DNA of 37,048 nt from Phycisphaerae bacterium. GTDB taxonomy: Bacteria > Planctomycetota > Phycisphaerae > UBA1845 > PWPN01. The stretch is from contig JAAYDF010000102.1 in NCBI GenBank assembly GCA_012729395.1, positions 1 through 37,048 on the forward strand. Direction: 5' to 3'. Shown here piece by piece: positions 12,535 to 36,188 of this stretch (positions within the stretch are counted from its first letter, which is position 1; each line of letters starts with the position of its first letter). The position numbers and the translations under genes were made by a program. The notes under the pieces are model-generated. The model saw only the letters and a list, made by a program, of their open reading frames with translations. It searched no databases and was not told the origin of the DNA.

Positions 12535-12591
12535 CCGCTGCCTCAGTGCTGTCGCAGTGAGCTCCCCGCTCACTGCGGCAGCCATTTTTTT
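12535..12591 (+). repeat. REP-like palindromic element, copy 1, acting as a probable terminator
   Basis: A 15-bp hairpin (12548-12562 with 12568-12582, loop TCCCC, one mismatch) is followed by CA and seven T, so it would work as a Rho-independent terminator on the plus strand. The 21 bases at 12535-12555 recur exactly, inverted, at 31546-31566, and the loop and 3' flank are also shared. The stem sequence between them differs but still pairs. Confidence 0.7.
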
Positions 12592-12665
12592 GCGCCGAGG
12601 GCAACTCGCCAGCCGAGAAGGAATTTCGCGGACGGAAGGATTTGTGGACGGGCGGCTGCGGGCAC

Positions 12666-12699: not shown

Positions 12700-12708
12700 T
12701 TTGGTCAA

Positions 12709-12782
<74 letters not shown>

Positions 12783-12836
12783 AAATATCGCTAAATCAAG
12801 GCTTTATGAACGGCTGCGATTTTGTGACTTTCCAGC

Positions 12837-12917: not shown

Positions 12918-14060
12918 ATGGCAAAACTCAGTGGCAAAAAAGGCAACCATTCATCGAAGTTCCCCCTTACTCTACACCCGACGGGCCAGTTTTGCAAGAA
13001 GATCAGAGGCAAGCTGTATTATTTTGGAACTGATAAGAAACAAGCGCTGCAACGATACCTCGAACAGGCGGCTTTCCTCCACGCTGGCAAAGCCGTCAAG
13101 CCAACGGCAGCAGGCGACAGGGTCTCGATCAAGACGTTGTGCAATCTGTATCTTCAGCACCAGAATGTAAGGGTGGATGCAGGAGAAATAAAGCCTCGGC
13201 AGCTATATGACCAGACATCGCTGCTTCGAGGATTCGTCAGGTTCGTCACCCCGAATCGTAGCGTTTCTGATATTTCCACAGCCGATCTCAGCGCTTACCG
13301 AGAAAAGCTGATCAAGCAGCGGAAGGCTACCACGACGGTCAACAATCACGTTGCTGCCATCAAAGCCATGTATCACTGGGCGATGGAACACGAAATGATC
13401 ACGTCCATGCCCAATTTGAAGGCGATCAAGAAGGTTACGCCGAGTAAGGTTACCAGGCCGACCTTCACGACGGAGCAGATCAAGACCTTGCTTGGCCACG
13501 CTAATCCGCAGATGCGAGCCATGATATGGCTAGGGTTGAACTGTGGGCTAGGTTGTACCGATTGTGCCGAACTTCTCTGGCAGCACGTTGACCTCGACAC
13601 GGCGAGAATTGACTTTCCCCGAGGGAAGACCGGCGTCGGAAGAAACCTGCCCCTCTGGCAAGAGACGGTTGAAGCGCTTCGACAGATACCTCAGCGAAAT
13701 GAACGCGTCTTCAACACGCGCAGAGGGAATGCCTGGGTCCGAACGGTTGATAAGACAGATAAGGATGGAATGACCAAGTTCACCAAGGACAACGCCCTCA
13801 GCAAAGAGTTCGCCAAGTTGATGAAGAAGGTTGGGCTCAAGACAGAAAAGGGCGTCGGGTTCTACACGCTCAGAAGGACAGCTGCCACATGGACGGCTCG
13901 ATCCAAGGATCCCTTTGCCGTTCAGAAACTGCTCGGGCACGCCGATCTGAAGATGGCAAGCACGTACGTTCAGGATGTCTCCGAGCAGACGGATCGAGCC
14001 ATCAACAACAGCCGACGTTTCATAGTTTCAGATAGTTCTTCATCTTCGGCAGACGCTTGA
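12918..14060 (+). CDS. Tyrosine recombinase / phage-type integrase with altered catalytic set
   Basis: 380 residues: a basic N-terminal arm-binding part (1-60), a SAM-like core-binding domain (about 70-165) and a catalytic domain. The usual first arginine motif (GLRxxE) is replaced by GLGCTDCAEL at 210-219, and the HxLRH box reads FYTLRRT, keeping only the Arg (319) and losing both histidines. GHA (His341) and the nucleophile Tyr350 in ASTYVQDV are kept. I associate this pattern with a planctomycete integrase group. It should catalyse site-specific integration and excision of the neighbouring element. It lies 136 bp from the tRNA-Arg with its own promoter. The end overlaps the convergent HTH gene by 41 bp. 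Confidence 0.8.
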   Translation: MAKLSGKKGNHSSKFPLTLHPTGQFCKKIRGKLYYFGTDKKQALQRYLEQAAFLHAGKAVKPTAAGDRVSIKTLCNLYLQHQNVRVDAGEIKPRQLYDQTSLLRGFVRFVTPNRSVSDISTADLSAYREKLIKQRKATTTVNNHVAAIKAMYHWAMEHEMITSMPNLKAIKKVTPSKVTRPTFTTEQIKTLLGHANPQMRAMIWLGLNCGLGCTDCAELLWQHVDLDTARIDFPRGKTGVGRNLPLWQETVEALRQIPQRNERVFNTRRGNAWVRTVDKTDKDGMTKFTKDNALSKEFAKLMKKVGLKTEKGVGFYTLRRTAATWTARSKDPFAVQKLLGHADLKMASTYVQDVSEQTDRAINNSRRFIVSDSSSSSADA

Positions 14061-18628: not shown

Positions 18629-18815
18629 CCGAAGTAGCAATAGCAGCCGTGGGTGGATGCACGGCGCTTTACTGGAAAGACGGGTTCGAGCTGGCACCGC
18701 ATCTCCCGCAGTGCCACCCCGAGCATATTATAGTCCTCCTGCGAGTAGAATCCCCGTCCCTTTGGCGCCCACTAGATTTTGACATCGGCGAGCCCCTCTC
18801 AGGGGAGTTGGTTCA
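18629..18815. other. Short gene-free stretch after ParB-methyltransferase B
   Basis: Only a small CCCCT-CTC-AGGGG hairpin (18793-18805) just before the inverted-repeat arm. No gene was recognised. Confidence 0.4.
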
Positions 18816-18845
18816 GGGGAACGCACTTAGTAGTACACACCACAC
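18816..18845 (+). repeat. 30-bp perfect inverted repeat, left arm
   Basis: Starts GGGGAACGCACTTAG and ends CACACCACAC. Its exact reverse complement is at 20267-20296 inside the primase-like gene. Weaker similarity goes on for about 20 bp on the CA-rich side (to about 18865). Confidence 0.9.
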
Positions 18846-18916
18846 GCACCACACACGCCACTCTCCGCATCCGGTTTGTTCGTTTTCCTCTTCCCTAGGT
18901 CGGTCTTGCCTTTCGG

Positions 18917-18960
18917 CTAGTCATATTGTCCGTAGGAATTCTCCGTATTGTCCAGACTAG
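18917..18960 (+). repeat. Iteron-like repeats bounded by a dyad
   Basis: TATTGTCC occurs at 18924-18931 and 18946-18953, 22 bp apart (two helix turns), inside an outer dyad CTAGTC (18917-18922) / GACTAG (18955-18960). TGATAT then repeats at 18961 and 18974. The position upstream of a putative replication gene suggests initiator-binding sites. Confidence 0.45.
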
Positions 18961-19078
18961 TGATATCGATTTCTGATATGATCGACCCCGATAATAGCGA
19001 TCTCACTTTTTGCGGGAAGGAAAGATCATCGCATCCGTCGAATCAACATGCAGCACAATGCAGAGTGCTTTCTGAACA

Positions 19079-19195
19079 CCCAGGGGTTGGTAGGTTGGCG
19101 CACGACAAGAACAATTCGTCTTCCGCGCATGTAACGTTGGATCGTGACTGCTCCAACCCCCGGCCCAGGCGGCTGCATCTGCCTGGGCTCTTTTT
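19079..19195 (+). terminator. Leader hairpin with T-run before the primase-like gene; possible attenuator
   Basis: GCCCAGGC (19163-19170) and GCCTGGGC (19181-19188) form an 8-bp stem followed by TCTTTTT, a good intrinsic terminator 17 bp before the ATG at 19213. Upstream, GGGGTTGG (19083-19090) can pair with CCAACCCC (19153-19160), and CCCAGG (19079-19084) can compete for the terminator's 3' arm. Mutually exclusive pairings of this kind occur in leaders of plasmid rep genes controlled by attenuation. Confidence 0.55.
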
Positions 19196-19212
19196 ATCAT
19201 GATGGAACGATA

Positions 19213-21108
19213 ATGCACGAGTCCACGAATCCATTGAACCCGGGAAAGAAGAAACGGAGAAGACGTGTCTATCCAATGGAAACTGAAGCCGCCTGGTACG
19301 TCCTAAAGGAGTTCGTCGATCCACTAGAGTGCCTTGACAAGCGGCTGGGCACGATCTCGCCGCTGAACACGAACGAAGTCCTCTGCCATGTGTACTCCCG
19401 GACCAAGCTGTATACGCCCTACCATTTCTCAAAAAAGCGTCTCCACGATCATCTTGAACAGACTGACACGTACTACTACCGGTCGAAACGTAACAGCCGC
19501 CACAAGATAGGCTACGGACGCAGCGCCAGACAGGCTCTTGCCCTACCGTTTTCAAACTATCTGGGGATCACGGAACGGGTTCGGACGTACGGGCGCTATT
19601 ATGTCCTGCTCGTGGGATTGGATGTCGATGGGCACAACGGTGAACGCGATATCCTCGCCGTGCAGGACTGGCTCGTCAGCGACTACTTCACGGCGTCGTA
19701 TTGGGAACCGTCAAGCAGCTATACGGGACGCCATGGATACTACAAAGTCGCTTACCGAGACCACCTCGATCTCGACCACGTCAAGGGTGTCCTGACGGAG
19801 CTTCATAAGCTACTCGATGTCAAGCGGAAGAAGATGGGATTCGATGCGCCGATCGATGTGGCGTGCGGGCTGCCTGCTTCGTACTACTACGACCGGGAGA
19901 ACGACATCTGTGGAATTGACTTTGCGGCAAGAATCAAAGAGACGCAAAGGAAGCACATGGAAAATGCATTCAAGAGGCTGACTGCCCGGGGAGAAGACTG
20001 GACGAGGTACTTCTTTCGGGAAGACGATGACGAAGAAACCCCATCACAGCTGGCAGGAATCCGGCTTCCTGTGACGCTCAAGAGTTCTCAGGGCTACAAG
20101 ATCCCTAGATTCAACGGGACGGCAGAGAGATACAACATGCACGATATTGCAGCGTTCTGGAATCTGCCCTACTACGATTTTGCTGATCTAGTGGTGATGA
20201 GAGATCAGTTGAGGACAGAGGTCATGCTGGGGGACTCGGAAGAAGGAGAAGGGAGTGGTGTGGGGTGTGTGGTGTGTACTACTAAGTGCGTTCCCCCAAG
20301 GGAATGCACCAGGGGTTACAGATCCAGCAAGGCGCAGGAGTCAGGCACCGAGAGTTCCGTCGCTTCCAGCTCTGGTTCCAAGCAAGCGAGTGAGCCGCAG
20401 CGCAAGGCCCGTGACGGGAACAGGCTGACTTACCAGGAGCGGATCGAGCAGTGCCGGCAGATCAAAGACACGCTCGTCAAGACGAACAGGTTTTACTGGT
20501 GGTACGCGGTCCTGTTAGGTTATGTCCCGTCCGTTGATGACGCCATCGAGGAGTATGTCCAGCAGGGCTTAAACACAACGCAGAGCCTGCATCATCCGTC
20601 AAGGAGACGCAGATTTGAACAAGTACGAGCCTTCATCGCAGCAAGATTCAGCGCCGATCGGATCGGTCCAAACTACGACGATTGGGACGAGCGGAAGCAG
20701 CGGATGATCGATGAACTCCAGCAGCGGATTGGGGAGCGTGATCTGAGATGGAGAAAGGACAAGAGAAGGGTCTACGAATTGACCTTGGAGGATTTGGCGG
20801 TTGTGTATTACGGCATTATGAAATCGAACGAGGCAGATGCCATGGGAGAGCTGCGGGACCGGACGCATTCGTTCAGCTACCGGCAGGTCAATGGGGTCTT
20901 CGGAGCGATATGCGGCCGCACGTGCCATCGGGCAAAGGCGGCGAAGATCCTGAGGCTGCTGGTGGAAGTGGAACTGATCGAGAAAGTTGGGGAGCACGTG
21001 GTCGGCGTGAGGGGAACCTGCTATCAGGTCGCAGACTTGGGGTTTCAGAACCCATCCAAGCACCAGACGTCGCCAGTGGCTTCGTGTGGCATCGGCCTTT
21101 CTAGATGA
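19213..21108 (+). CDS. Putative archaeo-eukaryotic primase-like replication protein of the element
   Basis: 631 residues from the ATG. The N-terminal half shows the spacing of AEP/PrimPol folds: YYVLLVGLDVDGHN with Asp137 and Asp139 (hDhD motif), then EPSSSYTGRHGYYKV with His174 (sxH-like motif), both well conserved in planctomycete proteins I recall; the third acidic motif is not certain. A Cys-rich linker (CVVCTTKCVPPREC, about 352-365) is encoded by the right arm of the 30-bp inverted repeat. A Ser/Lys-rich stretch and a helical C-terminal domain follow, ending in a winged-helix-like region (AKAAKILRLLVEVELIEKVGE). The likely role is priming or initiating replication of the integrated element. 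An in-frame GTG at 19144 lies before the terminator hairpin, so the later ATG is chosen. Confidence 0.45.
   Translation: MHESTNPLNPGKKKRRRRVYPMETEAAWYVLKEFVDPLECLDKRLGTISPLNTNEVLCHVYSRTKLYTPYHFSKKRLHDHLEQTDTYYYRSKRNSRHKIGYGRSARQALALPFSNYLGITERVRTYGRYYVLLVGLDVDGHNGERDILAVQDWLVSDYFTASYWEPSSSYTGRHGYYKVAYRDHLDLDHVKGVLTELHKLLDVKRKKMGFDAPIDVACGLPASYYYDRENDICGIDFAARIKETQRKHMENAFKRLTARGEDWTRYFFREDDDEETPSQLAGIRLPVTLKSSQGYKIPRFNGTAERYNMHDIAAFWNLPYYDFADLVVMRDQLRTEVMLGDSEEGEGSGVGCVVCTTKCVPPRECTRGYRSSKAQESGTESSVASSSGSKQASEPQRKARDGNRLTYQERIEQCRQIKDTLVKTNRFYWWYAVLLGYVPSVDDAIEEYVQQGLNTTQSLHHPSRRRRFEQVRAFIAARFSADRIGPNYDDWDERKQRMIDELQQRIGERDLRWRKDKRRVYELTLEDLAVVYYGIMKSNEADAMGELRDRTHSFSYRQVNGVFGAICGRTCHRAKAAKILRLLVEVELIEKVGEHVVGVRGTCYQVADLGFQNPSKHQTSPVASCGIGLSR
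20267..20296 (-). repeat. 30-bp perfect inverted repeat, right arm, inside the primase-like gene
   Basis: Exact reverse complement of 18816-18845. On the plus strand it encodes the Cys-rich linker between the two halves of the protein. The arms enclose about 1.42 kb containing the leader and the N-terminal half of the gene. Confidence 0.9.
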
Positions 21109-21225: not shown

Positions 21226-21789
21226 TCAAAGCTCTGATACAGCTCCAGCCGGGCCACTGTTGAGTTGAGTGGTGCCGTAGGAGCAAAAGTTCAGGAGAGT
21301 ATCAGCAGTGAAAGCAGATCGGTTAGGAGGTGGGGATAGCCGAAGCCCGATCTCGTGCTCGCCCCAGTATTCGAATTCTACATTCATGTGGCGGGCAGCG
21401 GCGATGCGCCTCCACTTCCGGACATGCTCTTCCCATTTCTGCATGAAGCTCTTCTGGCCGCGCAGTTTGGCGTCGCTGCGGTTCATTGGCGTACAAATCG
21501 TGTACTTGGTGAGCCGCGGATGTTTGGCGATAGCGGTCCGAACTGAATTGTCAATCTCTCTCCACTGGGTCGAAGTCAGGGCCGAACGAAAGTATTTTGC
21601 CTGCCAGCCCCATTCATCACCACCGGGTAACCGCCAGAAGCACTCCACTCCGGCGTCCGGTGCTCCTTTTCGGAGAAATCGAGAGCCGCTGGGCATGCTT
21701 TCACCAGCGGCCAATTGGCAGCACAATTCTTCAAATCCAGCGCTCTTTGAGCCGTTCCAGACCCGCAGGCTATCCCAGTCCACCGCCAT
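21226..21789 (-). pseudogene. 5' remnant of an Avs-like (STAND NTPase) gene: Mrr-type nuclease domain only
   Basis: Residues 1 to about 152 match the N-terminal effector domain I know from antiviral STAND (Avs) proteins: WDSLRVWNGSKSAGFEELCC, then PDAGVECFW and EWGWQAKYF, giving a PD-(D/E)xK-type site with Asp45 and the Mrr-like Gln63-x-Lys65, and VEFEYWGEHEI near the end of the similarity. After GLRLS (about position 21333) the sequence stops resembling the family and runs to a stop, so the NTPase and sensor parts are missing. The full protein would be over 1000 residues. The nuclease domain itself is uninterrupted and could still be made. ATG at 21789 with GAGGCGG upstream. Probably a deletion relic in the defence island. 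Confidence 0.65.
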
Positions 21790-22003
21790 CGACACGCCGC
21801 CTCAATCCATGTCTTGGTTATCCAAAATTCGCTGGTCCATCATCTGGCTGCTCGTTTCAGCAATTGTCCGCAACTGAGTATGCCGCGTCGCCCCTGGCAC
21901 ACAGGCTCTTTACCATAAGCAAGTTTGGTTTGGCATTTGCTGGATATAGCTCAGAGGTCATCATCTATAGGCCCAAGTTCGTCTCTTGGCCCGGCCGTGT
22001 CGG

Positions 22004-22585
22004 TTACTTCTGGTCTGATGTCAGCATCGCCTGGCCCTCGGCGGTAATCTCCCATACGCCGCGGGGCGAGTCGCGTTTGAGCAGGCCCTCGTTGACCATG
22101 CTGTTGCGTGCCCACTGCGCGGCGTTGCGCCAGCGCGGGTTGTCGGGTCCGCTGGCCAGCGGTTCGTAGTCCACGTCCTTGAGGATCGGCTTCATGAGCC
22201 GGCCCACCCGCTCCAGCACTTCGGCCACTTTGCCGCTGCCGCCCATCTCGTCAAGCACCCTCAGAATGGGCCGGTAGTATGCCGACTCGTGCGTACGAAC
22301 GCCCTTGCGCAGCTTGCCGAGGTTGCGTCGTTCGGTACGGGTCTGCTCGTCCTCATCCCGCTCGGCCGCCGCCGCCATCTGCTCCCATTCCTTCCGCAGC
22401 GCGGCGACCCGGTCACGGAACGCGGTGAGCACTCCCGACCGCTCCAGGGCCTCTTTCGCCTTGTCGTAGTCGCGGCCCTGGAAAGCCCGCGATCCGACGC
22501 CATTGACGAAGTCGATCTCGGCCTCGACTTCCTCCAGGAGCATCTCGAACGCCGAGGATACGTTGGACGGATTGTTTTCGATCAT
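22004..22585 (-). CDS. Mrr_N-type winged-helix protein
   Basis: 193 residues. An N-terminal helical, charged part (1-100, coiled-coil-like, rich in Glu and Arg) is followed by a winged-helix domain of the Mrr_N type: YYRPILRVLDEMGGSGKVAEVLERVG, then WRNAAQWARNSMVNEGLLKRDSPRGVWEITAEG. In Mrr restriction enzymes this domain contacts DNA before the nuclease domain, but no nuclease domain is present. It is the last gene of the four-gene operon, 6 bp after the RhuM gene, with its ribosome binding site inside that gene's end. Likely a specificity or regulatory subunit of the restriction-type system. Confidence 0.7.
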   Translation of the reverse strand: MIENNPSNVSSAFEMLLEEVEAEIDFVNGVGSRAFQGRDYDKAKEALERSGVLTAFRDRVAALRKEWEQMAAAAERDEDEQTRTERRNLGKLRKGVRTHESAYYRPILRVLDEMGGSGKVAEVLERVGRLMKPILKDVDYEPLASGPDNPRWRNAAQWARNSMVNEGLLKRDSPRGVWEITAEGQAMLTSDQK

Positions 22586-22591
22586 GAATGC

Positions 22592-23668
22592 TCAGTCCTT
22601 TTTTCGCTTCCTGGTAGTCTTGCGCGGAGACGGTTGAGTCGTGCGGGTTGACTCCAGTGCCTTCGCCGTAGACCTCAGATCATCCAGATAGCGGTTCTCG
22701 GCAGCTTGTTCCGCCGCCAATCGCCGCCTTTCGACGAAAACCCCATACTGGGTCTCGGCCCAAGATCTGGCTTCTTCCTGGCTCACCGAACCCAGGCCCT
22801 CTAACACTGGAAGCTCGGTGTCGCGAAGGAATTTGTCCAGGAAAACCGTCCAGTCTCGCATTCTGATGTCCTGCCGCCGCTGGGCCCGGAACTCAGCCTG
22901 ATCGAGGAACATCACGACGATGCGGTTCAGCGTGTCGATTTCTCCTTCAGCCAGGTAATTCTTTGCCGTCGATACGTCGCGTTTGAGAACCCGTCCGCCA
23001 CTCCATGTCATCAAGCCCATGTTGGCTTGGTCAGCATCAGCCCGTCGGCGGATGATCTCGGCCGCCGTCATCCCACTGGCGGCGTAGTGCATCTTATTCT
23101 GCATGGTGGCGAAGAAGAGTTGCGTCTCCTGTTCGCCTTCACGATAGTCTACGGCGAGAGCGAGAATCTCACGGATACGCTGATACACCCGCTTCTCACT
23201 GGCCCGGATTTCGCGAATGCGGGCGAGCAACTCGTCGAAGTAGTCGCCCAGACGATCACGGCCTTTGAGGCGGTCGTCATCCAGGGTGAACCCCTTGACA
23301 AGGTACTCGCGAAGCCGCTCGGTGGCCCACTGACGGAACTGAGTGCCGCGGAGGGACCGCACCCGGTAGCCGACAGCCAGGATCATCTCAAGGCGGTAAT
23401 GCTTGGTTCGGTATCTCTTGCCATCCGCGGCAGTTATTAAGTATTCCTTAATAACTGCCCGCTCTTGCAACTCCCCGTCTCGCAAGATGTTACGAATATG
23501 AATGTTGATATTGGAGACTGAGGTCTGGAAAAGCTCAGCCATGTGGGCTTGGGTAAGCCAGACGGTTTCATTCTCCAGCCGCACCTGAATGCGGCTCAAT
23601 CCGTCCTCCGTCTGGTAGAGGACGATTTCGGAATGGGCCTGCGGGACTTCTTCTGGTGGATCAGTCAT
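22592..23668 (-). CDS. rhuM: RhuM family protein
   Basis: 358 residues with the hallmarks of the RhuM family: EIVLYQTEDGLSRIQVRLENETVWLTQAHMAELF at the start (an HTH-like DNA-binding start), SVSNINIHIRNILRDGEL, KHYRLEMILAVGYRVRS, and a C-terminal AKNYLAEGEIDTLNRIVVMFLDQAE region. The biochemical role is not established; the family is named from a Salmonella pathogenicity island and is common inside type I restriction operons. The Lys/Arg-rich tail may bind nucleic acid. GGAAGG precedes the ATG. It sits 12 bp after the methylase stop and 6 bp before the Mrr_N gene, so it is clearly co-transcribed. Confidence 0.85.
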   Translation of the reverse strand: MTDPPEEVPQAHSEIVLYQTEDGLSRIQVRLENETVWLTQAHMAELFQTSVSNINIHIRNILRDGELQERAVIKEYLITAADGKRYRTKHYRLEMILAVGYRVRSLRGTQFRQWATERLREYLVKGFTLDDDRLKGRDRLGDYFDELLARIREIRASEKRVYQRIREILALAVDYREGEQETQLFFATMQNKMHYAASGMTAAEIIRRRADADQANMGLMTWSGGRVLKRDVSTAKNYLAEGEIDTLNRIVVMFLDQAEFRAQRRQDIRMRDWTVFLDKFLRDTELPVLEGLGSVSQEEARSWAETQYGVFVERRRLAAEQAAENRYLDDLRSTAKALESTRTTQPSPRKTTRKRKKD

Positions 23669-23680
23669 TACTACCTTCCT

Positions 23681-26600
23681 TTACTTCCACCGCTGCTTGC
23701 AGTATTCAACGGTCTCTCTGACGGTTAGCTGACGGGTGGAGTTGCCGGCGCGGATGAACATGATCTCATCGTTGCCGTCCTTGACGTAGGTGGGTTTGGG
23801 CGATGGTCGAACCGCGACGCGGCAGACTTCGTGCTCGCCCATGCCGTGGAAAGTCACCGAAAGCAACGGGCTGCTGTCCTTGCCGAACTGGCCCAGCAAC
23901 AGGGTCACCAGCCAGTTCTCGAAGCCGTCCCGGTTCTGTTTTTTGCCAAGGGTCTTGAAGTCGTGACGGAGTCCGACGATCCGCCCGTCGTCGGCCACGC
24001 CGATGAGCAACGTTCCGCCGTCGGTGTTGAGGAAGGCCGCCACGGTCTTGACGATCACCATTTCCAACGCTTTGTTCAGTCTGTTCTCATTCATATCCCA
24101 GCGGGCGGACGATTTGAATTCGGCATTGGGGCCCTCGCCGGCGGCGATCAGGGCAGCCGCTTCCTGGTCGGCGGACTTCGGGGCGAATTGCCGGTAGGCG
24201 GCGAGGGCATCATCCTTCACGCCCTGCGGGACCAGGGGAAAGGTCGTGAGGATGTAGGCAAACTCCTCCTCGGTCAGGCCGTAGAGGTGGGCAATCAGGC
24301 CATCGAGTTCGGCCCGCAGCTTGGCCCGTTCGGCTGGGTCGGTCGCCCCCTGCTTATGGCTCTTAAGGCCGACCTCGCGGGCCAGGTCGTCGAACTCGGG
24401 CATCGTGCAGATCAGCCGCGCCGCGCGCTCCACGATCGGCCTGAAGTCCTTGTCCTTCGCCGTCAGGCGAGGAACAGGAAGCTGGTAGACGTAGAAGAAA
24501 TTCAGGGTTGTCGTAACCTTCATGCGGATCAGGTAGTCCACCACGTAGCTGTTCCATGCGGCGCACAAGAAAAGCTGCTCGCCATCCCGAATGAAGCGAT
24601 CCTCCTCCTCGTCAAAGATGCGAACGGTCGGAATCTTGTTGCCGTGGAAAGTCGGCGGGATGATCGACGACACCATCGTGCGCTCGTTCGTGTTCGAGGC
24701 GATGTCCCGAAATCCCAGCCGGTACGCCTGATAGTCGAGCCGTTGTCCTTCGTCTTCAGTGCGGCCGAGAACAACGGCGCGGGCTTCCTTCTCGTCCACC
24801 CAGTAGCGCGGCTCGGCGAAGCGGTGGTTGAAGTGCCAGATCATCTTGCCTTCGTACAACGGTAGCCGCCCCTTGCCCGGCGCATCCTTGAATAAGTGGC
24901 TGTCGTTTGTCATGTGGAACTCGGCCGTGAAACTCACCTTCCACTTGCCGGCTACGTCTTCGCCCAGCAGTGGGAAACGCAGAGCCTTCTCGCAGATGGT
25001 CACGTCGATGTCGTTCTTGAACTCCATGACGGAGAGTGAGTCCGGCGAGAGGCGTTTGACCAGATCGACGGAGATGTCGATCGCACCCTGGTCGGGGAAG
25101 CGGTCAAGCTCGGCCACGTCGAGTCGCATGAACGCGGCGGGGAACGACTTGGTCTTGCCGCCCTTGGCAAAGGTCAGGACGACGAACTTGAAGCTGCGGT
25201 GAACGTTCTCGAAGACCTCCTTGCGGTTTTCGATGCAGAAGAGGCCAGTGACCTGGGCCTGCTCGAAGAGCATGGTGCGAAGCTGCTTGGCCCCCAGGTC
25301 GGTGTAGATGCCCGAGGGGATGACGATGCCACACTGCCCGCCGGGGCGCAGCAGGTTAAAGCACTGCTCGGCGAAGAGCTTGTAGAGGTTGATGTCGGAG
25401 CCAGCCTTCTTGCCGCCGACGATACTGATCTGGTTGCGGTATTGCGGCGCGGAGCGGTAGAAGGCGCTGACGTGGGGATAGGAACTGAGGTACTGCAACC
25501 AGGCGTCGCGGATATCGCCGTCCTTGAGCAGGTCGGCCTGCTCTTCCTCGAACTCGTGGATGGTCATCTTCTTCTTGGTCACGAGGTCGGAGTAGTCCTC
25601 GAAGAACTCCTTGGCGTTGGGCTTGAAGATCTCCCAGGGCGGGTTGGTGATGATGGCGTCGAAGCCGCCGCGTTCGTTGAGGACCTGGTCGAACTCGTAG
25701 CCCCAGTGGAAGGGCTTAAGGTCGCGGATGTCCTCGGGGGTCATGGAACGCTTGACGGTTTTGCTCGGCTTGCCCTTGCGGTCGTCCCAAGTGGCCTGCT
25801 CATACTTGATTCCGAGGCGCTCGAACTCGGCCAGGAGGATGTCGTCGAGGGTGTCGAGGGCCTCCTGCTTCTTGGCCTGGATCGAGTCGCGCAGGCCGCG
25901 GAGGTCTTCGGCGTAGGCCGCGGTGTGGCGGTAGGTCTCGATCAGGCGGTTCTTCTCGGCAACGATCTCGGCATAGGGCTTGCGGAAGAGGTTCCCCTGG
26001 GCGTTACGTTTTTTGAATTCGGCGTCGTCCACGTGCATCAGACCGATGAGGCTGTTGCCGGGCAAGATGTTGAAGTCGATATTGGGCAGGGGTTCCAGGT
26101 CGTCGGCTGAGGCGGCGGAGGCGACCAGGGCGAGGAAAAGGCGGAGGCGGGCGATTTCCGTGGCCTCCTCCATGATGTCCACGCCGAAGAGGTTATCAGT
26201 GATGATGGATTTCTTGATGAAGTAGTTGATGCTGCGGTGCTGCTTTTCGGTGCGGGCGAGCCAGTCGGACATGGCGCGGTCGCTGAGGAACTTGATCTTG
26301 CCGACGACGGCGGAGTAGAGGTCGATGAGGGTCCTCATCGCGGCGACGAGGAAGGCCCCTGACCCGCAGGCGGGGTCCAGGAGGGTGAGGCGGGGCAGGA
26401 CCCTTTGGAGCAGGTGATGGCAAAGGGGGGCGTCCAGGTCGAGCAGAAGCTCGGCCACGGAGTCGTACTGCCTCGCCTTGGTGACGCCGGGGATTTCGGG
26501 CGTGTTGACGGCGTCGAGGACCAGACGGTGGATGGTCCGCTCGCAGAGGTACTCGGTAATCTCGGTGCGGGTGTAATAGGCCCCGAAGGCCTTCTGGTTG

Positions 26601-27613
26601 ATGTACTTTTCGAAGATGTAGCCGAGCACATCGGGGTTGATCTCGTCGTCCCGGCCGCCGGGCGTGTCGTTGAGGTTCCAAGAGTAGCGGGCGAAGAGGG
26701 CCAGCAGATTCTCGAAGGCCACGTCGGGCACGGCGATACGGGAGTATTTCTGCTCGATGGCGTGAGGCAGGAAGAGGCCGCCGTTGAGGTACTTGATCGT
26801 TCCCAGCAGGGCGCGGGCCTCGGGCGAACGCTGCTCTTCGGGCTTGGCGAACCCTTCGAAGAAAAGACACTTGAGGAACTCGCCATAGAAGCGGTCCTTG
26901 CCCTGCTTTTTGGACTGGGTGAGCCTGTGCTGGAGGTACTCGCCGTCGCCCCCGTCGAGGAAGAACTTCCGCTGGAGGAAATAGATGAACATCATCCGGT
27001 TGAGCAGGATGGAGGCGTACCAGCGGCGGTCGTGATCGTCGTCAATTCCCTCGATGAGGTCCAGGAAGGCGATGTGCTGCTCCTGGAACTCGTTATAGAA
27101 CTTTCTGGTGACCCGCTCGACGTCCAGGGCGTTTTTGAGCCTGCCGGTGACTTCGAGGAGGGAGACGTTGCCGGTGGCGTCGAAGTCGCCGATGTCAAAG
27201 ACCATCGCGCTGAGCTTGCTCAGGAACAGGTCGCCGGGCTGCCCCCGGACGAAGATGTGGTCCCGGGCGTAGCTCCTGCCCTGCTCACGTTTCATCCAGT
27301 ACCAGAGGCTCTGGGACCGCCGGCCATCGACGAAGATGAGGAGGTTTTCGTGGTGATGGGCGGCGATTTCCTTATGGATCGCGGCGCGGGTCCTGGCGTC
27401 GGGGATTCTCCCGTCGCCGTCGGTGGGCTCGATCTCGAAGATCACAACGCCGGCAAGCTGGGCGATCTGCCGACGGTTGAAGGAAACGTCGCCGCAGCCC
27501 ATGGCGACGGGCCGGCAGTCGGCGGGCTGGGACCAGCCCAATTCCTCGATGAAGAGCTTGAGGAATTCGAAGTCCTGGAGACGCCTGCGGGCATTTTCGA
27601 GGTCGATGGCCAT
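23681..27613 (-). CDS. Eco57I-type DNA methyltransferase with C-terminal AlbA_2/Schlafen-like domain
   Basis: 1310 residues. A long N-terminal helical region (1-400) leads to an adenine-specific methyltransferase: SAM motif LLDPACGSGAF (411-421) and catalytic NPPW (657-660) in FDAIITNPPWEIF, the gamma-type order typical of Eco57I and BREX/DISARM-like methylases. A target-recognition-like region follows. Residues 1163-1310 form an AlbA_2 (divergent Schlafen/AAA_4) domain: NAEFKSSARWD, LNTDGGTLLIGVADDGRIVGL and a closing FIRAGNSTRQL. This fusion is unusual and may add nucleic-acid binding or RNase function. It should modify host DNA at N6-adenine while the neighbouring helicase acts on unmodified DNA. 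The start is 3 bp after the helicase stop, so translation is probably coupled. Confidence 0.85.
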   Translation of the reverse strand: MAIDLENARRRLQDFEFLKLFIEELGWSQPADCRPVAMGCGDVSFNRRQIAQLAGVVIFEIEPTDGDGRIPDARTRAAIHKEIAAHHHENLLIFVDGRRSQSLWYWMKREQGRSYARDHIFVRGQPGDLFLSKLSAMVFDIGDFDATGNVSLLEVTGRLKNALDVERVTRKFYNEFQEQHIAFLDLIEGIDDDHDRRWYASILLNRMMFIYFLQRKFFLDGGDGEYLQHRLTQSKKQGKDRFYGEFLKCLFFEGFAKPEEQRSPEARALLGTIKYLNGGLFLPHAIEQKYSRIAVPDVAFENLLALFARYSWNLNDTPGGRDDEINPDVLGYIFEKYINQKAFGAYYTRTEITEYLCERTIHRLVLDAVNTPEIPGVTKARQYDSVAELLLDLDAPLCHHLLQRVLPRLTLLDPACGSGAFLVAAMRTLIDLYSAVVGKIKFLSDRAMSDWLARTEKQHRSINYFIKKSIITDNLFGVDIMEEATEIARLRLFLALVASAASADDLEPLPNIDFNILPGNSLIGLMHVDDAEFKKRNAQGNLFRKPYAEIVAEKNRLIETYRHTAAYAEDLRGLRDSIQAKKQEALDTLDDILLAEFERLGIKYEQATWDDRKGKPSKTVKRSMTPEDIRDLKPFHWGYEFDQVLNERGGFDAIITNPPWEIFKPNAKEFFEDYSDLVTKKKMTIHEFEEEQADLLKDGDIRDAWLQYLSSYPHVSAFYRSAPQYRNQISIVGGKKAGSDINLYKLFAEQCFNLLRPGGQCGIVIPSGIYTDLGAKQLRTMLFEQAQVTGLFCIENRKEVFENVHRSFKFVVLTFAKGGKTKSFPAAFMRLDVAELDRFPDQGAIDISVDLVKRLSPDSLSVMEFKNDIDVTICEKALRFPLLGEDVAGKWKVSFTAEFHMTNDSHLFKDAPGKGRLPLYEGKMIWHFNHRFAEPRYWVDEKEARAVVLGRTEDEGQRLDYQAYRLGFRDIASNTNERTMVSSIIPPTFHGNKIPTVRIFDEEEDRFIRDGEQLFLCAAWNSYVVDYLIRMKVTTTLNFFYVYQLPVPRLTAKDKDFRPIVERAARLICTMPEFDDLAREVGLKSHKQGATDPAERAKLRAELDGLIAHLYGLTEEEFAYILTTFPLVPQGVKDDALAAYRQFAPKSADQEAAALIAAGEGPNAEFKSSARWDMNENRLNKALEMVIVKTVAAFLNTDGGTLLIGVADDGRIVGLRHDFKTLGKKQNRDGFENWLVTLLLGQFGKDSSPLLSVTFHGMGEHEVCRVAVRPSPKPTYVKDGNDEIMFIRAGNSTRQLTVRETVEYCKQRWK

Positions 27614-27616
27614 GGT

Positions 27617-30600
27617 CTATTTGCCCTCCCTGGCGGACGGCTTGGACGGTTTGAGGGGCAGCCTGGCGTGCGGGCCGGGCTGCGGCCGGAACCAGTCGGT
27701 CTGGTCCTTGTTGGCGGACAGCCCCATGGAGCAGATGATCCTAGGCTCCTGTGTCTGCTCTTCTTCATGGATCAGGCACAGCCGGTCTTCCTCACGCAGG
27801 GCGACGACCAGGTGGGCCAGGTCGCTGTCACAGATGCCGGACCGAAGCTGACGATTGAGGGTGTCCGTCGCCGTCTGCCGCAAGGGGTAGCGGTAGATTT
27901 CCTCGATGGCCCTGGTCAACTGCTCGGTGGCGAAGAGCGTGCCCTTGATCTCTTCGGCGTAGGCTTTGAGCCGTTCATAGGTCCGGAAGCGGGCCCCCGA
28001 GGGTCGGCCGAGTTCGCCGCCGACGGATTTCTCTTCCTCGACGATCAGGTCCACCCCCTTGCGGACCAAGGCGTGGTGTTCCTCCAGGCGCGGCAGGGCC
28101 GGGGTGTCGGGCGGACACTCGGCGGCCTTGAGGATGGCGAATTGCGATTCGGTAACGCTGTGGCCCTGTTTGCCCATGTAGGCCAGGGCGTCGTTGCCTT
28201 CGGCGGTGCGGAGATAGACCAGGACGCCTTCGGGTTGGCTTGCCGTCGGGGAGTGGGGCTTGGTCGCGTAGATCACCGGGGGGAGTTCGGCGATGAGCTT
28301 TTCGAGGCTGGGGTCACGATCGATGGCGTTCTTCCATATTTGATAGGCGTAGGAGGCCAGGTCCACCTCGGTATCGGCGTCGCCGTCGAGGATGCCCGCC
28401 TTCTCGGTGAACAGGTCGCGGACGACCTGATCGTTGCGGTCGTCCTCGAAGAACGATTCGTCGGTGCCAACAACTTCGGCGTTCTCCTGAAGCCGTCGGC
28501 GAACGCGGGCACGGAGTCGGATGATCCGCTCCACGCCGTCGGCGGGCAGGAAGGAGTAGCATACGATCTGCTCCGACTTCTGGCCGATGCGATCCACGCG
28601 CCCGACCCGTTGAATGAGCCGGATGATCGCCCAGGGCAGATCAAAGTTGATAACAGTGGAACAATCCTGGAGGTTCTGGCCTTCGCTCAGCACATCGGTG
28701 GCGACCAGGACGCGGAGTTCGTCGGCGGGGGCAATCCGATCCCGCTTATTGTTGCTGACCGGGCTGAACCGCCAGGCCACGGCGGTGGGATTTTCGCAGT
28801 CGCCGGTGACACCAACCGATCGATTGACGCCCGCGGCATGGAGTTGGGCGTCGAGGTAGCGGACGGTGTCGGCGAACTGGGTAAAGACGATGACTTTTTC
28901 GCCGGCATGCTTGCCGGTCAGTAGTCTGACCAACGCGGCCAACTTGCTGTCAGAAGCGGGGTCCCACTCGCCACAGACTTTCAGGACTTTCAGGAGGGCC
29001 TCCGCGTCCGCCTGAAGGTCTTTAGCCAACGAGGGCACGAAGAGGTCCGGCCGCAGCCACTTGAACCGCCGTTTGTACTGGCTGGCGTACTCGGTGTACA
29101 CCTCGGCCGCGCGGTTTCTGAAATCTTCGGGAGCCTTGAGAAAGACCGACCCATTGGCCGGCTCCTCACCTCCGTTGTCATTGTCTTCGAACAGCCCCGA
29201 GATGTGGTCTTCATCCGAGATGCGGGCGTCGAGCAGGCCCATGTCCTGCGTGCCGATGGGAATGAGCAGCCCCTCTTCGATGGCGTAGAGATAGACGTAA
29301 TTCCGCAGTATGTGCCGCTGGATGGACAGGAGGAAGGCGTGGCCGCAGCTCTCCAGGCGCTTGAAGAGGTTTGTGCGGCAGAATCCCATCAGCCGCTTGC
29401 CCGCTCGCGAAAGGTCCTGCATCACCCGGCCCTCGTCCTGAGTGGGCGGTTTGTGCGGCCTTGCGGCGACGTAGTTCCCCAAGCCGTAGCGGGGCAGGGT
29501 CAGCGCGTTGATCGTGTTGACCACCTGATCCCCGTAGAGGCGGGCATACTGGTCATCGTTCTTCTTCTCGTTGATCTCAAACTGAGCCCTCTTCGGGACC
29601 CTCACGGGGAAGTACGATCGCGTGCCGTCCTCAAACGTCAGGTATCTTCGGCCGGAGGCGGAATCGGTCTCCGCGTAGTTGTCCTGGATGAAACTGCGAG
29701 TCCGGCGGACCAGATACAGTCGCATGAGTTCCCGCCAATCGTCGGCGAACTCGCTCTTTTCGAAAGCGGCCAGGGACCTTACCGGACACTGATGACGCCG
29801 CTTGAACTCCGTCTCCCCAAGCTCACGGAGCAGCCGTTCCGGTCGAACGCCGATGTCCTTGTCCTCCGTGACGAACAGCCGCAACTGGTTCGACAGGTCC
29901 AGGTAAGTCTTGTTGTACGGCGTGGCCGAAAGCAGGATGCACTTGCTCTCGTTTTCCCGAAGATACTCCTGAATGGCCCGGTAACGTTTGCCGTCACGGT
30001 TGCGGAGGTTGTGGCTTTCGTCGAGGATCACCAGCCGGTAGCGGCGAAGGTTGACCAACTCCTTGGTAACCTGCGTGATCGAAAGTACCCTGGCCCGAAG
30101 CCTGTACTGTTCGCGGTAGTCTTCCCACATGGGCACGAGGTTCTTGGGGCAGATGACCAGCGTCTCAAGTCCGTGGTCGTCCTCGAAGATCCGGGCGACG
30201 GCCGTGGCCATCAAGGTCTTGCCCAGGCCAACGACATCGCCGATCAGAACGCCGCCCCTCTTGTTCAGGTGATGGGCGGCGATCTTGACGGCGGCCTTTT
30301 GAAACTCGAAGAGTTTTTCGCCGAAGTCGGTGGGGACCTTGAACTCAGTAAGGCCGGCGCGGGCTTCTTGTGAAAGGTGGTAGGCGATTTTCAAGTAGAT
30401 GTGATAGGGCAGAACCGGCTCGGTCCGCGCCCAACTGCCTTCGATGATGTCAACAAGCTCCTCCGAGATATCGATGCACCACCGGTCTGTCCACCGGTCC
30501 TCGAACCACTTGGCGAGCTTCTGACATGCATCATGGTCCATCACGTCGATATTCAGCTCGCCCTGGCTCGACAGGCCCGCGAATGTAAGGTTGCTGCTGC

Positions 30601-31075
30601 CCAGGAACCCCACCATCGGGTTGATCGGGTCCGGCCGGAACAACAGATAGAGCTTGGCATGAAGGGTGTGGCGAAGGAACAGCTTGACGACCACCTTCTT
30701 CGCCTTGATCTGTGCGGCCAAGCGACGAAGCCCCGCCTCGTCCTGGTCCGTGGGCGCTCCGATGGCCAGCTGCTCGCGGAATTCCTCGGCGAGTCGCGCC
30801 TTGAGTCGCAGGATGGTCTGCGTGTCGATCGCACCGTCGCGTGAGACGAGGCTCATCGCGGCCCGAAGCTCCTCTTGCGGGAGCCGCTGCATCCCAACCA
30901 GCAGACGGCAGCACTGACCGTCGCCGCCGGCCCAGCGCTCGATGTAGGAGTCCAGTTGCTTCCATCCCCGCAGGTTGAAGTAGCCCACACAGAAGTCGGC
31001 GTGGTCCGCTGCGTTAAGGGTCTCCTGCAGTGCCGGTAGTAGCTGCTGGTCGATGTTGTCGAAAACCCGAGGCAT
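27617..31075 (-). CDS. PLD-like nuclease domain fused to an SNF2-family helicase
   Basis: 1152 residues from the ATG at 31075 (GGGAAGG upstream). Residues 1-200 are a phospholipase D-type domain with one HxK half-motif, HAKLYLLF (His139, Lys141) and GSSNLTFAG (about 159-167), of the kind found in DNA-cutting PLD proteins. The SNF2 motor follows: GDVVGLGKT (Walker A, 279-287), DESH (352-355), LLSATPYN (382-389), then helicase-C with VIVFTQF and QRVGRVDRIGQ. SNF2-PLD proteins act in restriction-type defence as translocases with a nuclease; DISARM keeps similar parts (DrmD, DrmC) in separate genes. It is first in the operon with the methylase, RhuM and Mrr_N genes. Confidence 0.85.
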   Translation of the reverse strand: MPRVFDNIDQQLLPALQETLNAADHADFCVGYFNLRGWKQLDSYIERWAGGDGQCCRLLVGMQRLPQEELRAAMSLVSRDGAIDTQTILRLKARLAEEFREQLAIGAPTDQDEAGLRRLAAQIKAKKVVVKLFLRHTLHAKLYLLFRPDPINPMVGFLGSSNLTFAGLSSQGELNIDVMDHDACQKLAKWFEDRWTDRWCIDISEELVDIIEGSWARTEPVLPYHIYLKIAYHLSQEARAGLTEFKVPTDFGEKLFEFQKAAVKIAAHHLNKRGGVLIGDVVGLGKTLMATAVARIFEDDHGLETLVICPKNLVPMWEDYREQYRLRARVLSITQVTKELVNLRRYRLVILDESHNLRNRDGKRYRAIQEYLRENESKCILLSATPYNKTYLDLSNQLRLFVTEDKDIGVRPERLLRELGETEFKRRHQCPVRSLAAFEKSEFADDWRELMRLYLVRRTRSFIQDNYAETDSASGRRYLTFEDGTRSYFPVRVPKRAQFEINEKKNDDQYARLYGDQVVNTINALTLPRYGLGNYVAARPHKPPTQDEGRVMQDLSRAGKRLMGFCRTNLFKRLESCGHAFLLSIQRHILRNYVYLYAIEEGLLIPIGTQDMGLLDARISDEDHISGLFEDNDNGGEEPANGSVFLKAPEDFRNRAAEVYTEYASQYKRRFKWLRPDLFVPSLAKDLQADAEALLKVLKVCGEWDPASDSKLAALVRLLTGKHAGEKVIVFTQFADTVRYLDAQLHAAGVNRSVGVTGDCENPTAVAWRFSPVSNNKRDRIAPADELRVLVATDVLSEGQNLQDCSTVINFDLPWAIIRLIQRVGRVDRIGQKSEQIVCYSFLPADGVERIIRLRARVRRRLQENAEVVGTDESFFEDDRNDQVVRDLFTEKAGILDGDADTEVDLASYAYQIWKNAIDRDPSLEKLIAELPPVIYATKPHSPTASQPEGVLVYLRTAEGNDALAYMGKQGHSVTESQFAILKAAECPPDTPALPRLEEHHALVRKGVDLIVEEEKSVGGELGRPSGARFRTYERLKAYAEEIKGTLFATEQLTRAIEEIYRYPLRQTATDTLNRQLRSGICDSDLAHLVVALREEDRLCLIHEEEQTQEPRIICSMGLSANKDQTDWFRPQPGPHARLPLKPSKPSAREGK

Positions 31076-31210
31076 CGATCGCCTTCCCTTTGTTCTTGAA
31101 GCCGCGGCCGAGAACTTCATGGGAGTGCGTCTCCGAAGACGCCCACCCACCGGCCCCTCAAGCATCGGGAGCCGCCAAGTCGCCCTTTGCAGGGCAGAAA
31201 GTAAGTGCTA

Positions 31211-31238: not shown

Positions 31239-31516
31239 CCGCCGCAGCCCAAGTTGCGGGATACCCGCCCTATGCTTGGCAGCTAGCCCGGCAGGCCAAG
31301 CAATACACGGTGGCCCGCCTGCGGGAGGCCAAGATCATTCGCCTGCGTAACATGCGGCAGGATAAGTACTTCCGCATCCTGGTCGACGTGGAGGTCGACG
31401 GCCAGGATCTGGGCAAGCGGCTGATTGAGGCGGGGCTGGCTGGGCCGTACGATGGGGGCAAAAGGCCCAAATGTGGGAGTAGGGCCAAAAGCCCCTCCGG
31501 GGCGGATGGCCAATAA
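31226..31516 (+). pseudogene. C-terminal fragment of a thermonuclease (SNase-like) gene
   Basis: After an in-frame stop at 31223, the frame reads YAWQLARQAKQYTVARLREA, then RNMRQDKYFRILVDVEVDG, then DLGKRLIEAGLAGPYDGGKR. That is the C-terminal half of the staphylococcal-nuclease fold (DKYxRILxDVxVDG...LGxxLIxxGLAxPYDGG). The N-terminal half with the first catalytic Arg and the calcium-binding Asp is missing and no start codon has a ribosome binding site. The tail after GGKR is non-homologous and leads into the palindromic repeat. A relic, probably cut when the defence operon arrived. Confidence 0.65.
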
Positions 31517-31566
31517 ATGGCTGCCGCGGCAGGCGGGGAGCCGCCGCGACAGCACTGAGGCAGCGG
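31516..31566 (-). repeat. REP-like palindromic element, copy 2
   Basis: Inverted relative to the copy at 12535-12591. The 21 bases at 31546-31566, the loop core GCTCCCCGC and the 3' end GCGGCAGCCATTT are shared. The stem differs (GGC-GGC with GCC-T-GCC instead of AGTGAGC with GCTCACT) yet still pairs. The T-run is broken (TTTATTGG), so terminator function is less likely here. Confidence 0.7.
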
Positions 31567-32764: not shown

Positions 32765-33703
32765 TCAGTACGATACCCGCTCTGCCGCCTCCGCCAATTG
32801 CTGTTGGGTCCTCTGCGTATAGCGTGCGGTGGTATTCAGGTTCTCATGCCCGAGAATCTGCGCCAAGGCGACGATGTCGTTGCCCGTATCCTGCAGGAAC
32901 TGATGGGCCATCGAGTGGCGAAGCAGGTGCGGATGGATGCGAAACCCGCAGATCGCCGCGTACCTATCGCACAAGGCCCGTACCCCCCGGTCCGTCAGAG
33001 GCCCACGCTCCCCCAGGAACACTCGGGACGTCTCTGCCGGCGGACGGCTCTCCAGGTACGCCGTTACTGCCTTGCGGGCCGGCAGCGGCAGCGGGACGGT
33101 TCGCTGCTTGCCGCCCTTGCCGAACCGGAAGACCACCGCCCCCGACCGCTCGTTGATAAGCAGGTCCTGTAGCTCCAGTTGGACCAGGTCACTGACCCGA
33201 CAGCCGGTGTGCAGGCTCAGACTAAAGATCGCCATCGCTCGAATGTCCTGCCGTAGTTCGACCTCCCGAAGGAGTCGGCGAACTTGTGATCGTTCCAGCC
33301 CCTTGGGCGTCAGCTGTTGGAGGCGAAGCTCTTTGACCTCCTTGGCCGGGTTGGTTGACAGATGCCCCTGACCCACGAGCCAATTCAGGTACCGCCGAAG
33401 CGAGACCAGAGCCCGATTGACCGTCGAGACAGCCTGCCGACGCTCCTCCCTCAGATAGCGTTTGAAACTCGTCACGTCCATCATGGTAATCCGCTTCGTA
33501 TCGAATGGTTCGCTGTTCGCCGCAAAAAAGAACCCGGCAAACTTCCGCAGGTCGAACCGAATCGCCCGGACCGTATGCGGGGAGAGGTCGTGGGAGCTCA
33601 AGAACCGCCCGACAAGCCCCGGCTCCTGCGGAGCGACAGGGACGCCTTCGAAAATATTATCGCCCGAATTGTGACGGCCTTCCGAACAAGAATCAGACAT
33701 CAT
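32765..33703 (-). CDS. XerC/XerD-type tyrosine recombinase with a complete catalytic set
   Basis: 312 residues. SAM-like core-binding domain (about 25-120) with [20 protein letters not shown], then a catalytic domain with every expected residue: Arg in [12 protein letters not shown], Lys in [12 protein letters not shown], the HxxR box in [14 protein letters not shown], His in [10 protein letters not shown] and the nucleophile Tyr in ARYTQRTQQ. It should cut and rejoin DNA through a Holliday-junction intermediate. It is last in a minus-strand cluster with an HTH gene (40 bp upstream) and two RuvB-like genes, unlike housekeeping xer genes. AAGGA precedes the ATG. It differs strongly from the integrase at 12918, so the two modules are independent. 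Confidence 0.88.
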
Positions 33704-33742
33704 CTGTACACTTTTCCTTCTATATTGGAGTGATATTCGTAG

Positions 33743-34228
33743 TTATCTCTCCACATTATCTGCCGAATTCTGACACTTGAGATACCGGTAGATCGCCCTC
33801 AACACTTCACTTTCATCAACGCCAGTAGTTCCTCCAGGATAGCAGGTGCGGATTGCCGAGCGGACTTGGGCGTCGGTCAGGTCATCGAGTCCCAGATCGG
33901 CCAGAGCCTCGATCAGGTCGGGATCGACCGGCTGTGTTTCCGACGCCGGTTTCGACGGACGCGGCTCCCTCGGGGCCGACGCGTAGGATCGTCGCGAGTA
34001 GAACAGAATTGGACGGTTGTTGGCTCCGTAGTTCCGTGCCCGGATCTCCAGGTTCGCCTTCTGAATTTCCGGCGGAAAGAAGGGACGCCGGGTCTCGGTG
34101 TCGTGGACCGGCGGAAGGAACACCCCCTCCTGGACCAGCTGATAGAATCGACTGCGACTCATCCCGAGCATCCGAGCCATCTCAGTTACCGATACGGCAG
34201 CTTTCAGGTTATCAGTTCTTTCAGCCAT
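33743..34228 (-). CDS. Helix-turn-helix DNA-binding protein of the recombinase module
   Basis: 161 residues. An N-terminal MerR/excisionase-like HTH (about 10-55: AVSVTEMARMLGMSRSRFYQ, then FFPPEIQKANLEIR) is followed by a basic, Pro-rich linker and an acidic C-terminal helical part (DPDLIEALADLGLDDLTDAQVR). The likely role is directing the recombinase or regulating the cluster. The start overlaps the end of the RuvB-like gene by 8 bp with an ideal GGAGGTGA site, so the two are translationally coupled. No family name can be given for the C-terminal part. Confidence 0.65.
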   Translation of the reverse strand: MAERTDNLKAAVSVTEMARMLGMSRSRFYQLVQEGVFLPPVHDTETRRPFFPPEIQKANLEIRARNYGANNRPILFYSRRSYASAPREPRPSKPASETQPVDPDLIEALADLGLDDLTDAQVRSAIRTCYPGGTTGVDESEVLRAIYRYLKCQNSADNVER

Positions 34229-35204
34229 TGTTCACCTCCGCTGCGACATTCTCCTGCAGATGCCGAAGCCCCTCGCCGGTGATCATCCTCCCCCTGTCGC
34301 TCTTGCCGATCAAGCCCACCCGCAGCAGGAACTCCTCGATCGTCGTCGCGACCGTCTTGGGAGTAAGTCCGATCTGTGACGCCAAGACGTTCAGGCGTAC
34401 GGGTTCGGCCGGCTGGGCAAGGATGCGGAGGTATTTCCGCTCGATCGGACCCAGCCCCAGGGCATCGAGACCCTCCAGCCGACAGGCGGCATCGAAGTGC
34501 TCGATGGTCAGGACGGTGTCGCCTTGGCTTCGAGCGACTCGCCGAACTTCTTCGAGGATTCGCAGAGCGATTCGCGGAGTGCCTCGACTGCGTTGGGCGA
34601 TCCGATTGAAAAGGCCTGCATCTTCCATTTGCCAGCCGAGCTTGGTTGCCCGCTGGCTCAGCATGACCGTTAACTCTTCGTTGGTGTAATAATCGAACTG
34701 AAGCACGAGCTTGAATCGGTCCCGCAGGGGCTTGAGCAACTTTTCGGGGTTGGTGCTGGCGGCGACCAGCGTCAGGTTCGCCATCTCCAATACGCGTTTT
34801 CGCTTGGCGTCCGTCCCGCCGAGGAAGATCTTGCCGTTCTCCATTGCCCGATAGAGTGTGACCTGGACCTCGGGTCGCAGTTCATGGACCTCGTCAATGA
34901 AGGCGAAGTCTCGATCGCCCGGCTCCATTAAAAACCCCCTCATCTGTTCGATGTTCCGGATGTTCTGGGCGAGCTGCTCGAACATCGTCGAGCCCATTTC
35001 CTTTGAGATTAGATGACATAGCTCGGTCTTCCCGACGCCGGGCGGGCCGACCATGATCGCGTGGGGAAATCGCACTCCGTCCTGCCAGGCAGCGTTCAGG
35101 GCCACCTTGATCCGCTCGACAACTTGCCGTTGACCGATGAACTGCTCGATCACCGACGGAGTAGACGAGGGATCGTTGACTTCGTTGGATGGTTGTTCAG
35201 ACAT
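34221..35204 (-). CDS. RuvB-like AAA+ ATPase (intact)
   Basis: 327 residues collinear with RuvB, the hexameric motor that drives Holliday-junction branch migration: FIGQRQVVERI at the start, Walker A GPPGVGKT (53-60), Walker B FIDEVHEL (102-109), sensor 1 ASTNP, arginine finger in PLRDRFKL, sensor 2 GTPRIALRIL and a RuvB-like C-terminal winged helix (VLASQIGLTPKTVATTIEEF to GEGLRHL). It is shorter in the RuvA-contacting hairpin region and divergent from housekeeping RuvB, so a paralogue specialised for the cluster is likely. AAAGGAG lies 9 nt before the ATG. It is 60 bp downstream of a degenerate paralogue and overlaps the HTH gene. Confidence 0.8.
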   Translation of the reverse strand: MSEQPSNEVNDPSSTPSVIEQFIGQRQVVERIKVALNAAWQDGVRFPHAIMVGPPGVGKTELCHLISKEMGSTMFEQLAQNIRNIEQMRGFLMEPGDRDFAFIDEVHELRPEVQVTLYRAMENGKIFLGGTDAKRKRVLEMANLTLVAASTNPEKLLKPLRDRFKLVLQFDYYTNEELTVMLSQRATKLGWQMEDAGLFNRIAQRSRGTPRIALRILEEVRRVARSQGDTVLTIEHFDAACRLEGLDALGLGPIERKYLRILAQPAEPVRLNVLASQIGLTPKTVATTIEEFLLRVGLIGKSDRGRMITGEGLRHLQENVAAEVNNG

Positions 35205-35264
35205 CGCAGCAACTCCTTTGCATTCCGTGAATCATGCCGTTGAATCTCTGGACAACACGCACAG

Positions 35265-36053: not shown

Positions 36054-36188
36054 GGCAAGAACTCCAAGCTCCTTCCAGTAAACGACCTCGACAATCTCTG
36101 GACGAAACTGGCACACACCAGCATGACATGGATCCGATGTCAAGGGGGCCAGTTGTTCGCCAGGCGGGGCCTCGGCGGCCGAAAGAGC

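Follow-up and report, generated by a model that had tools for sequence, protein, structure and literature searches.

An inverted repeat with one arm inside an AEP primase-like gene of a putative Planctomycetota integrative element: candidate paired primase start sites

The element and its replication gene

The window, i.e., the whole 37,048-nucleotide stretch of Phycisphaerae bacterium DNA analyzed here, contains a putative integrative element with its own replication gene (19213-21108, plus strand). A tRNA-Arg(ACG) gene (12708-12783, minus strand), which is the likely integration site, adjoins the tyrosine integrase gene of the element (12918-14060, plus strand; PF00589, 6.5e-20; phrog_1, 2.2e-44). 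Upstream of the replication gene are two genes for N6/N4-methyltransferases, one of which weakly matches ParB-N, and a XerC-like recombinase, an HTH protein and a RuvB-like AAA+ ATPase are encoded at 32765-35204 on the minus strand. The element carries two tyrosine recombinases. The latter module travels with the primase gene in relatives: the XerC-HTH-RuvB set was found beside this gene in three other loci (G269, G732 and G755), and a partial set in G407. Because the set recurs with the primase gene, these loci look like a family of integrative elements. RuvB is unusual on a mobile element; in the window the minus-strand module also includes a degenerate RuvB paralogue (32765-36143 for all four genes).

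Several other features of the window were observed. A defence-like island (22004-31165, minus strand) follows the replication gene and precedes the XerC-like, HTH and RuvB-like genes; it encodes an Mrr-N protein, a RhuM/PDC-S05 protein, a PLD-SNF2 helicase and a Type IIG-like restriction endonuclease-methyltransferase with a Schlafen AlbA_2 tail. A short ORF (21226-21795, minus strand) covers only ~155 residues, at the N-terminal end, of the Avs2 anti-phage ATPase profiles, which are about 1500 residues long, and may be an Avs2 remnant or a stand-alone N-terminal domain. There is also a second window-specific inverted repeat (12535-12593 and 31509-31566; about 55 nt, 85-87% identity, with a perfect 21-nt part), whose arms are 19 kb apart, have only these two copies in the genome and bracket the tRNA, the integrase, the replication gene and the defence island.

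The protein encoded by the replication gene had no Pfam or PHROG match, and PDB sequence searches gave no name for it either. An AlphaFold (AF2) model was built from four sequences; its catalytic core is fairly confident, residues 341-405 are disordered and the C-terminal part is helical. Foldseek alone provided no significant E-value for the model or for its catalytic domain. With VIA-align, enzymes of the archaeo-eukaryotic primase (AEP) superfamily were on top for the whole model (Prim-PolC, Z 9.0 over 197 residues; LigD polymerase, Z 8.3), and the catalytic domain by itself (residues 15-338; 19255-20226) matched best to CAPP Prim-Pol (Z 10.1 over 180 residues), with leading rows that were almost all AEP primases or Prim-Pols. 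The S-2L, NrS-1, human and yeast primases ranked below Prim-PolC, LigD polymerase and CAPP Prim-Pol; RepB' was absent among the structure matches listed, which is uninformative either way. The catalytic motifs DxD (D136/D138), GxH/sxH (H173 in GRHGY) and hD (D214) are invariant in five relatives. The product, which combines the AEP fold of the model with these motifs, is probably an AEP primase; because the Foldseek E-values were not significant, this assignment rests on VIA-align and the invariant DxD, GxH and hD motifs.

The catalytic domain is followed by a disordered linker (residues 341-405; 20233-20427), which has pLDDT values under 50 and is the most variable part of the alignment, and then by a helical C-terminal region with a tentative winged-helix-like domain (residues 406-606; 20428-21030). 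The latter is suggested by VIA-align, in which residues 490-606 of the model matched PerR, Fur and RPC62 with Z about 6. As for the C-terminal ends of related primases, those of loci L029 and L030, which are only 33% identical, terminate in the same tail, PRPPPRGQPPP, and the primases of several other relatives also end in PPP; the tail is possibly a docking motif.

The open frame of the primase gene extends back to a GTG at 19144, but translation is likely to start at ATG 19213, because an intrinsic-terminator-like hairpin (19162-19189, plus strand; 0.5 expected by chance) precedes this ATG. Within the leader (19060-19212), pairing of GGGGTTGG with CCAACCCC could compete with the terminator-like hairpin just before the start codon, and attenuation is possible. 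An initial sequence-only reading of this DNA had described the leader as attenuator-like, which is plausible in view of the competing structures, although the leader folded no better than shuffled sequences (z -0.9).

An inverted repeat with one arm in the linker-coding sequence

Positions 18816-18845 and 20267-20296 are exact reverse complements (30/30 nt), as the sequence-only reading had it, down to the coordinates. The left arm, with the 30-nt core GGGGAACGCACTTAGTAGTACACACCACAC on the plus strand, is intergenic and has a methyltransferase gene (ending at 18628) on one side and, 367 nt downstream, the primase gene on the other. The right arm, with its core on the minus strand, is within the primase gene and encodes part of the disordered stretch of the protein, where pLDDT is 22-46 over most of residues 341-410. 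The arms enclose 1421 nt that include the N-terminal catalytic domain of the primase, in agreement with the 1.42 kb and N-terminal half of the gene that had been read between them. Ungapped extension of the core yielded 39 nt with 95% identity (18816-18854 and 20258-20296), whereas gapped alignment extended the similarity to 60 columns (18816-18873 and 20237-20296) with 9 differences. All nine are outside the 30-column core, a distribution with a probability of about 0.001 if the differences were randomly spread.

The repeat had also been judged to be far beyond chance, and comparison with shuffled sequences bore this out. The window was shuffled 40 times with a first-order Markov model; the longest exact inverted repeat per shuffle averaged 16.2 nt and was never longer than 20 nt, versus 30 nt in the actual sequence, and alignment of the linker with the flanking DNA scored 37.6 versus a shuffle maximum of 17.4. 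The arms are specific to this element: the 5.74-Mb genome has these two copies only, even when 3 mismatches are allowed, no others were found in viral contigs, and a search of 397 genomes of the class gave one match with 3 mismatches, which is the control level. With two copies in the genome, a MITE or other dispersed repeat was rejected. An assembly fold-back is unlikely: relatives can be aligned with the gene on either side of the right arm, and beyond the core the two arms differ from each other. Of the iteron-like repeats that had been proposed between the arms, we found a 10-nt word in two copies (18925-18934 and 18938-18947) but no array of three or more near the arms, so this part of the earlier description stands only weakly.

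Recurrence in related loci and hairpins of the arms

We examined 18 loci with related genes, the window's included, from genomes of the phylum. At each locus we aligned the linker region with the reverse-complemented DNA around it, out to 5 kb, and compared the score with those of shuffled sequences. A linker-to-flank pair was detected in three of the 18 loci: the window and those of two distant relatives, G176 (47 nt, 83% identity; score 32.7 versus a null maximum of 18.0) and G615 (about 70 nt, about 75% identity; 20.3 versus 17.4), the last of which belongs to another family in the phylum. Each of the three has its in-gene arm at 0.57-0.58 of the ORF; the partner is inverted and lies in flanking DNA, and the arms are separated by 0.8-1.4 kb. 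The partner precedes the gene in the window and lies shortly after the stop codon in both G176 and G615. The three loci share the layout but differ in arm sequence, and the G615 arms have no sequence relationship to those of either the window or G176. No pair was detected at the remaining loci, including the close relatives G345, G269 and G407. Searches of phages and plasmids with tblastn and scans of viral and genome contigs revealed no close relative other than three loci that were already in the set.

A candidate common arm motif, TAnTAnTACAC, present in the window and G176 arms and in the gene of G407, was rejected, as its matrix found no second sites in other relatives. Separately, a short, partly palindromic word, CAAAAGTTG, recurs upstream and downstream of the primase genes of several distant relatives (loci L026, L027 and L030) and is a possible initiator or regulator site.

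As a positive control, we applied the same alignment method to the oriV of one IncQ1 plasmid. One strong inverted pair was detected (1038-1100 and 1138-1203; 27.7 versus a null of 17.9) beside the 22-nt iterons. On the minus strand, the pair contains a hairpin followed by CGCGTGTGCAGCC, in agreement with published ssiA, in which the hairpin occupies nt 7-27 and a GTG nt 31-33 (PMC4434180). From this agreement we infer that the pair corresponds to ssiA/ssiB.

Hairpins could be drawn at the outer edges of both window arms. That of the right arm (20286-20309, minus strand) has the form GTGCATTCCC-TTGG-GGGAACGCAC with 9/10 pairs (folding z -1.0), and the left arm has a weak hairpin-forming sequence (18793-18827, plus strand), CCCCT-CTC-AGGGG followed by GTTC-AGGG-GAAC (z -1.0, not significant). 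On the hairpin strand the arms continue TTAGTAGTACACACC, and a GTG start motif is absent within the next 13 nt. The window and G176 hairpins were no better than shuffles; however, the known IncQ1 origin hairpins failed likewise, and thus the shuffle-folding test has little power against an ssi-type function. The polarity of hairpin and tail, as judged by which side carries the hairpin, differs between G176 and the other two loci, the window and G615.

The G615 arms, by comparison with their own shuffles, both folded better than 200/200 (z -3.9 and -3.4). Each forms a large hairpin in addition to a small one, TCCC-TTC-GGGA, and both share the 3' tail TGACTTGGGGCT. When the two copies of the large stem are compared, 4/9 pairs differ at both positions, and pairing is preserved throughout. 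A comparable hairpin with a tail, GATGGCCCG-CTGGGA-CGGGCCATC ... TGACTTGAAGC, lies within the gene in G732. The compensated stems of G615 and the G732 hairpin are evidence for a folded single strand.

Paired primase start sites and other explanations

These features have partial counterparts in known replication systems. RSF1010 replicates by strand displacement with a bidirectional start (PMC4434180; PMC6925257), and has on each strand one hairpin site of ~40 nt that is recognised by the AEP primase RepB' (PMC4434180). The window resembles the IncQ/RSF1010 system in its AEP primase and in two similar, inverted sites on opposite strands; in both cases the sites are element-specific and imperfect inverted copies, and in RSF1010 each bears a hairpin. 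However, the RSF1010 sites are located in the non-coding oriV, about 40 nt apart, whereas here they are 0.8-1.4 kb apart and one is in the primase gene. RSF1010 also has an iteron array beside its sites, as well as the RepA helicase and RepC. No such array turned up here, and the window genes that were scanned included neither a RepA hexameric helicase nor a RepC initiator; the linked ATPase is RuvB-like instead. We do not file the window pair as an IncQ-type origin, because searches for iterons, for a GTG motif after the hairpin and for RepA/RepC were negative.

In the Sulfolobus plasmid pRN1, the AEP replication protein, ORF904, needs a stem-loop beside its gene, the structure of which is conserved but not the sequence (PMC4234260). 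The window would have a similar combination of an AEP replication protein with stem-loops, here candidate ones, by its gene, although pRN1 has one large downstream stem-loop and an SF3 helicase domain, whereas here there are two separated sites. The third system is phage lambda. The lambda origin consists of clustered direct iterons inside gene O, which are bound by O as double-stranded DNA. As in gene O, the origin signals here would be in a replication-protein gene, in a tolerant stretch between domains; unlike in gene O, there is one in-gene arm with an inverted partner outside, the protein is a primase, and no iteron family was found in the window linker.

The pairs are element-specific, inverted, hairpin-associated and tied to an AEP primase gene, and by the logic of RSF1010 and pRN1 we therefore favor, with somewhat more confidence than doubt, the idea that the primase of the element starts at the two arms, one per strand, which together would form an origin of the paired single-strand-initiation type. 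Recognition by the primase, action as single strands, priming and use as an origin are the parts that we infer. Each arm would become single-stranded when the element is excised or the origin region is opened, for which the linked RuvB-like ATPase is a candidate helicase. The AEP primase, encoded between and across the arms, would then recognise each single-stranded arm, and priming there would let both strands be copied, each from a site of its own. Of the two sites, one would sit in linker-coding DNA, where the amino-acid sequence should hardly matter, and the other in flanking non-coding DNA. Among the options of the sequence-only reading, initiator-binding sites fit best, but as paired opposite-strand sites for a primase.

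An alternative, which we regard as unlikely but as deserving attention, is that the arms are double-stranded binding sites of the replication protein, through its winged-helix end, or of another element protein, and serve in initiator loading or autoregulation without priming. A winged-helix-like C-terminus is indeed suggested, the left arm of the window is in the upstream region of the primase gene, and long element-specific sites would look as these do. However, autoregulation of a promoter does not explain the second arm downstream of the gene in G176 and G615, and the compensatory changes on both sides of the G615 stems speak for folded single strands rather than for a fixed double-stranded sequence. 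The same changes bear on a further, rather improbable explanation, that the left arm is a functionless relic: part of the linker would have been duplicated nearby in inverted orientation, for instance through template switching in replication. Arm similarity declines with distance outward (over some 60 nt in the window and some 120 nt in G176), as decaying duplicates would be expected to show, and the relic proposed in the sequence-only reading is probably right as to how the arm arose. As to the lack of function, we argue that the copy was kept by selection, because the perfect core is sharply bounded, with all differences outside it, three lineages share the layout and its place in the gene, and the G615 stems are compensated.

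A function at the RNA level seems very improbable; in this case the arm within the gene would act in the mRNA, as a structure or as the target of an antisense RNA, and transcription of the second arm would supply its pairing partner. The hairpins would form equally in RNA, and a leader with a terminator-like hairpin is present, as is one weak minus-strand promoter match (18954-18925); however, this match is near chance level (0.5 expected), there was no Rfam match, and the partner is upstream in one element but downstream in the others. Finally, we give hardly any credence to the invertible on/off switch of the replication gene put forward in the sequence-only reading: a perfect 30-nt inverted repeat inside coding sequence and two tyrosine recombinases would suit recombination between the arms, but near-identical arms are not conserved in relatives (83% in G176, about 75% in G615), inversion with a downstream partner would not part the promoter or N-terminus from the gene, as it would in the window, and in the inverted form of the window no more than 16 in-frame codons would precede the C-terminal half.

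Under the favored explanation of paired primase start sites, the feature that would be new is a priming site written inside the coding sequence of the primase itself. It is conceivable, although here our doubts somewhat outweigh our confidence, that Planctomycetota harbor a family of integrative elements in which replication begins at two primase start sites, far apart and on opposite strands, with one of them in the primase's own linker-coding sequence, and that enzyme and site co-evolve as a unit whose specificity changes between elements. If so, this would be a new layout of a minimal strand-by-strand origin, carried with, and partly inside, its own primase gene, in a phylum whose mobile elements have hardly been described. 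It would mean that a coding sequence is constrained as folded DNA, would offer a primase family with matched, swappable sites for the study of sequence-specific priming, and would hint at a RuvB-like motor in mobile-element replication.
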